DNA of 33,879 nt, taken from contig JANXUC010000016.1 of the NCBI GenBank assembly GCA_025352065.1, positions 1-33,879 on the forward strand, read 5' to 3'. Made by a program: the position numbers and the translations under genes. Below the pieces are notes generated by a model. That model made no database searches. It saw only the letters and a list, made by a program, of their open reading frames with translations, and was not told the DNA's origin. This DNA comes from Acidobacteriaceae bacterium. Its GTDB lineage: Bacteria > Acidobacteriota > Terriglobia > Terriglobales > Acidobacteriaceae. Below, in pieces: positions 12,578 to 15,378 of this stretch; within the stretch, counting starts at the first letter, position 1; the number at the start of each line of letters is the position of its first letter.

Positions 12578-13201
12578 ATGGCCATTACAAAGCGGCAACG
12601 GCAAGTCTACGACTTCATTGCGAACTTCGTGCAGGAGAAGGGTTACTCGCCTTCGTTCGAGGAAATTGGCGACGGTATGAGCCTGAACTCGCTGGCGACG
12701 GTTCACAAGCATGTTTCTAATCTTGAAACAAAAGGCTTACTCAAACGCGACTACAACCGCAGCCGGTCCATCGATTTGCTCCCCATCAAAGGCAAGCTCA
12801 GGCAGGAGATGAGCGTCAGTACGGAACTGCGCCTGCCTCTCATGGGACGCATTGCGGCGGGCATGCCGATTGAGGCGATGGAAACGCCGGAGACAATTTC
12901 TCTCGCCGACTTCGTGCGCTCGAAAGAAGTTTTTGTGTTGCAAGTCCGCGGCGATTCCATGCAGGACGAGCACATCGTCGACGGCGACTACGTGCTGGTG
13001 GAGAAAACCAAGACAGCGCACAACGGAGAAATTGTTGCCGCGCTGGTCGATGGCTCCGACAGCACGCTGAAGCGCTTTTATAAGGAAGGCGACAAGATCC
13101 GGCTGCAGCCATCGAACGCTGCGATGAAGCCGATCATTGTTCCGGCGATTGACGTGCAGTTGCAAGGACGCGTGATTGGCGTGCTGCGGAAGTACGCTTA
13201 G
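12578..13201 (+). CDS. lexA: LexA repressor
   Basis: SOS repressor that cleaves itself when activated by RecA. The 207-residue protein has an N-terminal winged helix (residues 1-70; recognition region SLNSLATVHKHVSNLETKG) and a C-terminal S24 peptidase domain. The cleavage site is A94-G95 in RIAAGMPIE. The catalytic pair is S127 in RGDSMQDEHI and K165 in STLKRFYKE. Length and motif spacing are normal. It stands alone, divergent from pntAA, and is followed by a 6-bp hairpin at 13201-13218 and one copy of a dispersed repeat. Its promoter contains a candidate operator, which would fit autoregulation. Confidence 0.96.
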   Translation: MAITKRQRQVYDFIANFVQEKGYSPSFEEIGDGMSLNSLATVHKHVSNLETKGLLKRDYNRSRSIDLLPIKGKLRQEMSVSTELRLPLMGRIAAGMPIEAMETPETISLADFVRSKEVFVLQVRGDSMQDEHIVDGDYVLVEKTKTAHNGEIVAALVDGSDSTLKRFYKEGDKIRLQPSNAAMKPIIVPAIDVQLQGRVIGVLRKYA

Positions 13202-13343: not shown

Positions 13344-13676
13344 TTACCCTATGTGCTTGTCGATGGCCTTCTCAATCGTCTCTTTCGGCACGTAGCCGAC
13401 AATCTGTTCCTTCACCTGGCCGCCCTTGAAAATCAGCAGCGTGGGAATTCCGCGAATTCCGTAACGGCCCGGAGTCCCCGGATTCTCGTCGACGTTCATT
13501 TTCATGACTTTCACTTTGCCGGAATAGCTTTGCGCGACTTCGTCGACTATCGGCGCCAGCGCGCGACAGGGTCCGCACCACACGGCCCAGAAGTCGATCA
13601 GTACTGGCTGTTCGGACTTCAGTACTTCTTGGTCAAAATTCGCATCGGTCAATTCCATGATTGCTGTGCCTGCCAT
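13344..13676 (-). CDS. trxA: Thioredoxin
   Basis: Small cytoplasmic dithiol oxidoreductase that reduces protein disulfides, recharged by thioredoxin reductase. The 110-residue protein has the WCGPC active site (C34, C37) in FWAVWCGPCRALAP, the cis-proline P78 in GIRGIPTLLIF, and a typical C-terminal helix. ATG at 13676 was chosen because GGAGGA lies 6 nt upstream; a TTG at 13688 adds only four residues. It is monocistronic, with a -10-like TATACT at 13757-13762 on the minus strand and a strong terminator after the stop. Confidence 0.96.
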   Translation of the reverse strand: MAGTAIMELTDANFDQEVLKSEQPVLIDFWAVWCGPCRALAPIVDEVAQSYSGKVKVMKMNVDENPGTPGRYGIRGIPTLLIFKGGQVKEQIVGYVPKETIEKAIDKHIG

Positions 13677-13756
13677 TGATTCCTCCAAAGTTTTAAGATA
13701 GCTTGGGCAACCTTGCGCTGCTTCACCATCGCTGGACGCTCGTTATCGTACCACTT

Positions 13757-13765
13757 AGTATAGAT
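13757..13765. promoter_or_regulatory. Overlapping divergent -10-like boxes
   Basis: On the minus strand TATACT (13757-13762) lies 81 nt before the trxA start. On the plus strand TATAGAT (13759-13765) faces the structured block. Neither has a convincing -35 at 16-18 bp, so both assignments are tentative. Confidence 0.3.
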
Positions 13766-13771
13766 GCGAAG

Positions 13772-14010
13772 CTGTCATGGAAGTTGCAAAGGGCTGGTTG
13801 GGAGGGCCTGCATCATCGCTCAAGTCGATGAAGCAACAAGGGCACATCTGCCCAAATCCCGGCAGCCGAGGCGCCTGCCGCTGCGTGAGTTTGCCTCGGG
13901 CAGGCTGTGCATGGGCTCGTCTTTGCAGAAAATAAAAAGCGCCCTGACGAATCAGGACGCCTCGGCTCGGCAGCCCTCCCCCAGGTCTGCCAAACTTACA
14001 GACCCAGTGT
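13772..14010 (+). ncRNA. Candidate structured RNA, family not recognised
   Basis: A 240-nt gene-free stretch with dense nested complementarity. The outer stem is 13800-13807 with 13973-13980 (8 bp). The main stem is 13862-13873 with 13958-13969 (12 bp, perfect), enclosing 13874-13879/13899-13904 and hairpin 13943-13947/13952-13956. Side hairpins are 13813-13818/13826-13831, 13840-13844/13849-13853 and 13984-13989/13999-14004. Possible long-range pairs 13783-13787/13833-13837 and 13785-13791/13921-13927 would add pseudoknots. I see no RNase P, tmRNA or SRP signature, and the branching does not fit 6S RNA. Strand is uncertain: plus is preferred because the minus strand contains a strong terminator in the middle. 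Confidence 0.45.
13930..13960 (-). terminator. Strong minus-strand intrinsic terminator
   Basis: On the minus strand, GCGTCCTGA and TCAGGGCGC pair (9 bp with one G-U) around a TTCG tetraloop, followed by TTTTTATTTT. It lies 140 nt after the anti-sigma gene stop, so it probably ends the sigma/anti-sigma transcript. It lies inside the self-complementary block described separately. Confidence 0.75.
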
Positions 14011-14066
14011 AGGGCGGATGGGCTGCGCCGCAAAGATCACTTCAGTAACCGCAGGAGGGCTGTAAA

Positions 14067-14087
14067 GGTAACCATGCGATGGTTACC
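14067..14087 (-). terminator. Hairpin just downstream of the anti-sigma gene
   Basis: GGTAACCAT (14067-14075) and ATGGTTACC (14079-14087) form a perfect 9-bp stem with a 3-nt loop, 13 nt after the anti-sigma stop. On the minus strand it is followed by TTTACAG, a weak T-tract, so it may be a partial terminator ahead of the stronger one at 13930-13960. Confidence 0.5.
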
Positions 14088-14100
14088 TCGTTGAACGAAG

Positions 14101-15378
14101 CTACTGTTTCCGCCAGCTCTTCCCACCATCCGATGTCGCCCAAACTTCGTGGCCAGCGGCTTCAAGGCGACCTTGCAGAGAGTCCGCAAACTCAAGCACC
14201 ACAATGTCCCCGGTGAGGATTGCGTATGCATCCTTCACGGCTACGGCTGCGAAGTTAGCGCCGCCATCCCAAGAATGAAACAACTTCCCGCCGTTCCCCG
14301 CTGCCCAAACATGCAATCCCGACATCGCCATCACGCGCAATCTCACCGGCTGGCCCAGACTCACGCTCTCCCAGCTCTTGCCAGAATCGTACGAACGCTG
14401 CAGCTCACCAGCAGTCGTGATCTGCCAGAGCGCAGCCTGACGAACGGCTTTGCGCGCCAAACGCAGGTTGCCTTCAATCGGCGCGGAACTCGCATGGAGT
14501 TCTTCCTTCACATCATTGTCCTTCTCTGTCCCCACCGCCTGCGCAGCCGAGGCAACCTCTGCAGTTTGGTTTGTTGCGCCAAATGTACCTCCACCTGCTA
14601 CCCCTGAGTACGAATACGCCTCCTTTTGTCGCGCATCCGTGTTGGCAGCCGTCAACTGATCTGACCGCATCGCCTCGGCTTTCTTGTCAGCCAGCAGGGC
14701 GGGAGCAGCTACCTTCGCGCTCTCAGCATTGAGACCTCCTAGAGGCGCTTGCCCCTTGCCCAAAGCAGTCTCCGGGGCCCCAGGCTCGTCGCGCTGAACT
14801 TCCAAATGCGGTTGGTCATCAGACTGACGCATACGCGCCTTGAGATCGAGTGCCTTCTGCTTGGACAACCGAGACGACAAAGCCAACGGCGACGCAGTCT
14901 TTGCAGCCGGTTGCGAAGGCGACGGAGCAACGCGCGATTCCGCCCGAGCGGACGTGACGCTGGCACTTGGTGCGACATTACTTGCCCTAGCTGGGATTGC
15001 CGCAGACTCATCCGCCCGCTTCGTCGCGACTACGGACGGCTTTTCTTCCTTGTTGCTATGCCGCAGTACCAGCGTCACCGCCAGCACCGCGCAAGCCGCC
15101 AGCGCTCCCCACCGCAGCCAGAAGCCACCAGAAACAAGGGGTTTAGGTATAAACGCCGGACTGCTCGTCACCAACTCCGGCTGTGCAAGCGCAACCACGT
15201 CGCGACACCTAGTACACTCCGCGAGATGGCCCACGACTTGGACCCGCTCCCACTCCGGCAACGAGCACTCCACAAACGCCGTGAGGAGATCAGGATCGGG
15301 ATGCGACACCGCGCTCGGAGGCAGCGCTCCCGTTCCCTGAGCCAGTTTGCTGGCCACGATTTTTGACAACTTTTCCAT
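14101..15378 (-). CDS. Membrane anti-sigma factor with Ycf48/BNR-like C-terminal repeats
   Basis: Likely partner of the sigma factor encoded upstream. In the 425-residue product the N-terminal cytoplasmic part has a zinc anti-sigma signature HLAECTRC (H51, C55, C58). One transmembrane helix lies at about 88-106. A long low-complexity Ala/Ser-rich linker follows. The last 120 or so residues hold three Asp-box-like motifs (RSYDSGKSWESV, HSWDGGANFAAV, ATSDGGKSWRKQ), as in Ycf48 or BNR proteins. The C terminus is therefore outside the membrane and could sense a ligand or misfolded protein and release the sigma factor; this is inference. It starts 78 bp after the sigma stop with no clear Shine-Dalgarno, and is followed by two minus-strand hairpins. 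Confidence 0.85.
   Translation of the reverse strand: MEKLSKIVASKLAQGTGALPPSAVSHPDPDLLTAFVECSLPEWERVQVVGHLAECTRCRDVVALAQPELVTSSPAFIPKPLVSGGFWLRWGALAACAVLAVTLVLRHSNKEEKPSVVATKRADESAAIPARASNVAPSASVTSARAESRVAPSPSQPAAKTASPLALSSRLSKQKALDLKARMRQSDDQPHLEVQRDEPGAPETALGKGQAPLGGLNAESAKVAAPALLADKKAEAMRSDQLTAANTDARQKEAYSYSGVAGGGTFGATNQTAEVASAAQAVGTEKDNDVKEELHASSAPIEGNLRLARKAVRQAALWQITTAGELQRSYDSGKSWESVSLGQPVRLRVMAMSGLHVWAAGNGGKLFHSWDGGANFAAVAVKDAYAILTGDIVVLEFADSLQGRLEAAGHEVWATSDGGKSWRKQ

Follow-up and report, generated by a model that had tools for sequence, protein, structure and literature searches.

Hfq-dependent trans-acting small RNAs (sRNAs) are short, are expressed from a promoter of their own, and carry a conserved exposed loop as well as a U-tailed intrinsic terminator. 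The described RNA closest in place and size to the one reported here is Yfr1, a cyanobacterial sRNA of 54-69 nt for which the excerpts available of the original report describe a terminator hairpin, an ultraconserved 11-mer, and a motif, ACUCCUCACAC, that is unpaired between two hairpins; 27 of the 31 genomes have trxA downstream of Yfr1 (PMC2190773). Excerpts of a second report describe the interaction of Yfr2 with Yfr1 and Yfr10 via nearly complementary motifs (PMC6778093). For Acidobacteria, Acido-1 (RF01686) and Acido-Lenti-1 (RF01687) appear as noncoding RNA candidates in the consulted part of another study (PMC2864571), and Table 1 of a 2022 review, also available as an excerpt, has only 4 annotated sRNAs for this group (PMC9029176). 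Our search of the open-access literature, i.e., without subscription papers or preprints, yielded no description of the present RNA among the matches listed.

The RNA gene lies in a window of 33,879 nucleotides (the whole stretch of DNA that was analyzed) from a soil-dwelling member of the Acidobacteriaceae, in a block between two minus-strand genes that encode an anti-sigma-like protein (ending at 14101) and thioredoxin (trxA, frame start at 13688; Table 1). The anti-sigma-like protein (14101-15378, minus strand) combines an N-terminal zf-HC2 domain with a C-terminal YCF48 match (PSII_BNR) of 23.6 bits, where the cut-off is 27, and akin C-terminal matches also adjoin the RNA in two other loci (L017 and L120). 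On the other side, lexA (12578-13201, plus strand; Peptidase_S24 and LexA_DNA_bind) is placed tail to tail with trxA. No Rfam model matched the RNA at its gathering score or anywhere in the block at E ≤ 10, and none matched its copies in three further loci (L043, L155, and L166) at E ≤ 1. 6S, Acido-1, and Acido-Lenti-1 can thus be set aside as identities of this RNA; it shares with the latter two, as far as the excerpts of their description go, that it is a noncoding RNA candidate from Acidobacteria, but neither of them matches it. A separate element about 1.6 kb from the RNA in one relative is a copy of Acido-Lenti-1 (L043:1146-1191, minus strand; 42.1 bits with a gathering score of 37).

Table 1. 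Coordinates of the RNA gene, its predicted elements, and its neighbors in the window.
Feature	Position	Strand	Basis and remarks
Small RNA gene, ~70 nt	13930..13999	-	63.5 bits with model R1, built from an alignment that includes the window's own sequence; model match 13930-13993, ends predicted
Hairpin 1, GGGGG loop 13978-13982, near-invariant core CUGGGGGAGGG	13965..13995	-	Fold and covariation
Intrinsic terminator: 12-bp hairpin, UUCG loop, then UUAUUUU	13929..13963	-	Fold and covariation
-10-like box TACACT, 16 nt from the -35-like box	14006..14011	-	Read from the sequence and relatives
-35-like box TTGCGG (TTTACA in many relatives)	14028..14033	-	Read from the sequence and relatives
Upstream element TTACTGAAGTGAT, possible activator site	14036..14048	-	Match located by sequence
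trxA (thioredoxin)	13344..13688	-	Pfam Thioredoxin, 119.3 bits; downstream neighbor, outside the RNA gene
Anti-sigma-like gene	14101..15378	-	zf-HC2 and weak YCF48-like match; upstream neighbor, outside the RNA gene

On the minus strand, the element consists of GGCAG, two variable bases, CUGGGGGAGGG, CUGCC, a short spacer, the terminator hairpin, and a T run. For an alignment made without reference to structure (A1), RNAalifold predicted 21 pairs in two helices; 65 cells were changed on both sides compared to 17.2 in shuffles, the true register scored above every slide on all measures, and hairpin 1 was hardly variable with 6 of its 9 pairs constant. We also used a model-fitted alignment, which by its making leans to the model (A3; 93 distinct rows, made from 95 selected sources that exclude terminator-only matches): There, 95.4% of cells were paired, 240 cells were changed on both sides versus 88 in shuffles, and 14 of 21 pairs had such changes, so that covariation was seen in both hairpins. 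These included 4 of the 9 pairs of hairpin 1, because A3 contains more distant members and extra copies. The RNA can be assigned to the minus strand through its T run and its U-G pairs (e.g., columns 10/21 in 85 of 93 rows), which would turn into A-C mismatches if the opposite strand were read. Conservation is limited to around 60 bases before and 70 bases after the start of the hairpin in a gap-free alignment of 97 distinct members on that position, scored as information content per 10-base bin. The values of 0.02-0.07 bits from -300 to -61 rise to 0.12 and 0.36 at -60 and -50 and are 0.20 and 0.39 at -20 and -10; they reach 1.76 and 1.66 in the first 20 bases, range from 0.15 to 0.63 across the terminator, and fall to 0.01-0.07 beyond +70. 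Judged from sequence, this profile is the outline of one short gene.

Three elements recur at constant offsets in front of this gene among the same 97 members: TTAC at -58 to -50 from the hairpin (79 members; control mean 2.6, maximum 11), a -35-like TT[TG][AG]C (76 members; control mean 4.7, maximum 10), and a -10-like TAnnnT (87 members; control mean 6.6, maximum 14). Transcription would be expected to start near position 13999. The gene therefore has a promoter region of its own like trans-acting sRNAs of the Hfq type; a strict sigma-70 consensus scan of the window, however, did not return it. Just upstream of the TTAC element lies a palindrome of 23 bases whose two halves carry GGTAACC and GGTTACC (14066-14088), and GTTAC repeats precede the TTAC element in many relatives. 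In the extra copies at L155, L156, and L157, a palindrome TGGCAC-N4-GTGCCA takes the place of the TTAC element, which suggests control by another regulator. A search for a TTAC-element regulon gave 22 sites in 6 genomes, of which 6 are promoters of this RNA while the rest showed no common theme. A peptide reading was considered by eye because some members have a GTG-initiated frame and was rejected, since single-base differences occur in the length of the inter-hairpin spacer and the core is largely invariant even at would-be synonymous positions. By all features that can be read from its DNA, the element is a free-standing gene: Its promoter region is conserved and includes an upstream element, its RNA of around 70 nt contains two hairpins that covary, and it ends in an intrinsic terminator. 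We are nearly certain that the minus strand carries a real sRNA gene here, and its product probably has a regulatory role.

When 100 genomes, including that of the window, were searched at the DNA level, 22 matches reached E ≤ 1e-4 in addition to the window itself, and all of them lay inside 13927-13999; weaker matches elsewhere in the block (e.g., to 13858-13890 with E = 2.2e-4) were short and scattered. The exact core is present in 28 of 80 trxA loci from named genomes, and model R1 added one more (L057). All 29 fall within the loci L038-L067, which are labelled Acidobacteria, Acidobacteriota, Acidobacteriales, Acidobacteriaceae, Terriglobia, or Terriglobales; one locus of that range (L045) matched neither the exact core nor R1, and a pattern test for the core found no match in L068-L117. 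Scanning 247 genomes of the phylum with a 20-base core that is blind to the four-G form of the loop detected exact copies in 9 of the 26 genomes that belong to the family and in 0 of the 221 remaining ones. A class-wide model search of 299 genomes with stricter filters (E ≤ 0.01) matched 62 of the 74 listed genomes from the window's family, and the core is absent from the 520 nt upstream of trxA in the 12 that did not match. Outside the family, 12 of 225 genomes matched, and the only one clearly showing the loop (G309; 52 bits) is an 85%-complete draft in which contamination is possible. Of the other 11, we read 7, leaving out G141, G170, G180, and G295, and found 6 to be terminator-only matches; one locus outside the family (L178 of G106) has a similar hairpin but neither the promoter element nor the T tail. 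The genomes that were read carry between one and four copies of the RNA, with a second copy in the window's own genome (C162:3206-3271) and four in G009. All 9 loci read from genus g34 have a four-G loop, and a third RNA subtype with GAGCAGCACTTGGGGGAGGGCTGATC was observed at L158:2001-2072 (plus strand) and at the center of L220 (reverse strand). Viral contigs contained 0 exact matches.

Most likely, this RNA acts in trans by pairing through its G-rich loop, since a single near-invariant loop of this kind, in a short RNA with a U-tailed terminator, agrees with such a mode of action. In the mechanism that we propose, a protein at the TTAC element would switch the RNA gene on, Hfq would hold the RNA at its U-tail, and the near-invariant apical loop (CUGGGGGAGGG) would pair with C-rich sites in other RNAs, altering their translation or stability. 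Extra copies, some of them with a different upstream palindrome, would feed several signals to the same targets. We regard the full mechanism, i.e., base pairing via the loop with the help of Hfq, as reasonably probable. The RNA resembles Hfq-dependent sRNAs in its promoter region, its short length, its conserved loop, and its Rho-independent terminator with a U-tail, and Hfq is encoded in its own genome (95.8 bits); Hfq-dependent sRNAs bind Hfq and target RNAs, both of which are putative here. Hfq scored over the cut-off in 22 of 23 further genomes (the exception being G309) and does not discriminate, because it is present whether or not the RNA was found.

Complements of the apical loop were counted near crude gene starts in 400 kb each of two genomes, G016 and G031. 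The 7-mers gave no overall excess (21 observed versus 19.7 expected in G016 and 16 versus 23.7 in G031), the corresponding values for the 8-mers were 8 versus 4.4 and 3 versus 5.6, and no target emerged from this sample. Single complements ranked high, such as CCTCCCC in G016 (3 versus 0.91) and CCCCCAG in G031 (3 versus 0.61). The exact complement CCCTCCCCCA occurs at 69 places in five genomes, the RNA genes themselves included, and exceeds a backwards-pattern control in 4 of the 5 with RNA copies counted (G000, 9 versus 1; G005, 15 versus 7; G027, 15 versus 5; G048, 14 versus 9; and, as the exception, G031, 16 versus 25). These places made 30 loci, 28 of them with context, of which 3 are RNA copies; the 25 others, 16 inside open reading frames and 9 not (including L220, opposite a further RNA copy), showed no recurrent gene or partner.

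That the complement searches marked no recurrent target, and that the invariant core takes in stem bases together with the loop, would also be expected if the RNA titrated a protein via its G-rich hairpin without pairing to any mRNA. CsrA is the best known ligand of GGA loops, but a CsrA sponge is ruled out by 0 CsrA matches in the RNA's own genome (98.47% complete); for the titration of some other protein, which we consider unlikely, no candidate was found. Still less probable is that the RNA is itself a sponge whose loop catches a C-rich small RNA. A G-rich loop would be the natural complement of a C-rich seed, and the consulted excerpts on Yfr2 with Yfr1 and Yfr10 in cyanobacteria provide the model case (PMC6778093), but no C-rich partner RNA appeared among our loci, nor did any partner recur in the 25 non-sRNA contexts of CCCTCCCCCA from five genomes.

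We weighed 2 further readings that concern the place and strand of the RNA rather than its partners. It is usually encoded on the strand of trxA, at 150-500 nt upstream of this gene, though other places occur as well, and it could be taken for a trxA leader, i.e., a terminator-type attenuator or riboswitch governing read-on into this gene. Among 119 distinct upstream regions of trxA, the core is on the trxA strand in 70, which favors such a role, but on the opposite strand in 4 (the 45 without the core include other phyla, the model-matched L057 and L173, and L022 with the RNA farther upstream). Extra copies adjoin unrelated genes (PilZ, GGDEF, TonB, Crp-like, and others), and some copies have no trxA in the examined stretch. 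A cis-only element bound to the strand of its gene does not fit these inverted and unaccompanied copies, which instead speak for independence of the RNA from trxA. Furthermore, a GCATC element nearer to trxA is kept in 64 of the 70 regions that carry the RNA and also in each of the 12 family genomes that did not match (L221-L232), which suggests that trxA may have a separate promoter. Taken together, the RNA looks like a neighbor of trxA and not its leader, and we judge the leader reading very improbable. The preliminary description of this locus had seen something else, namely a candidate unknown structured RNA in the form of a large nested fold across a self-complementary block of 240 nt on the plus strand. 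Of this, a structured RNA without an Rfam match and with covariation is borne out, the latter by the very comparison of homologues that it had proposed, but on the minus strand, around 70 nt long, and made of two simple hairpins. For either strand, the block as a whole is indeed more stably folded than its shuffled versions (z -2.99 for plus, z -3.19 for minus), yet the excess comes from 74 nt of the minus strand (14002-13929; z -3.97), and the remainder (13759-13928) folds like shuffled sequence on the plus strand (z -0.12). The block-wide plus-strand score favors a 240-nt RNA on that strand, whereas 22 of 22 matches at E ≤ 1e-4 in 99 relatives lie within the short conserved stretch, outside of which the nested fold has no conservation, and the U-G pairs and T run point to the minus strand; we hold this reading to be almost certainly wrong. 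Its 8-bp pairing (13800-13807/13973-13980) is exact, and a pairing given as a perfect 12 bp (13862-13873/13958-13969) is present with 10 bp only (13864-13873/13958-13967). Stem density, which had been called unusual, is weak evidence by itself: Of 267 stretches of equal length from the window, 7% contain at least 2 perfect stems with 8 bp or more. The terminator noted on the opposite strand is real; it is the 3' end of the minus-strand RNA itself and not a sign of two strands with different signals. Similarly, the plus-strand TATAGAT (13759-13765), taken for a -10 box, is the complement of ATCTATA in the conserved GCATC element upstream of trxA.

The minus-strand sRNA resembles Yfr1, as characterized in the excerpts of its description, by being short, ending in a terminator hairpin, and having trxA downstream, with 70 of 74 core-bearing trxA regions carrying it on the trxA strand. 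In contrast, its conserved core CUGGGGGAGGG sits inside hairpin 1, while the alignment has no unpaired ACUCCUCACAC between two hairpins as in Yfr1, and it comes from another phylum and lacks any Rfam match. It is not a Yfr1, because motif and layout differ, but represents a known kind of RNA as a new family. The limits of this family are well defined, both a covariance model and a promoter signature are available for it, and tests in culturable relatives should be feasible. The place beside trxA that it has in common with Yfr1, going by the available excerpts, raises a clear question on convergence. It is possible, though we offer this only tentatively, that the copies together form a multicopy sRNA regulon of Acidobacteria in which one G-rich loop is expressed from differently controlled promoters, with a Yfr1-like role beside trxA; the RNA would then be a global regulator specific to this lineage, with an independent origin at the same position in the chromosome.
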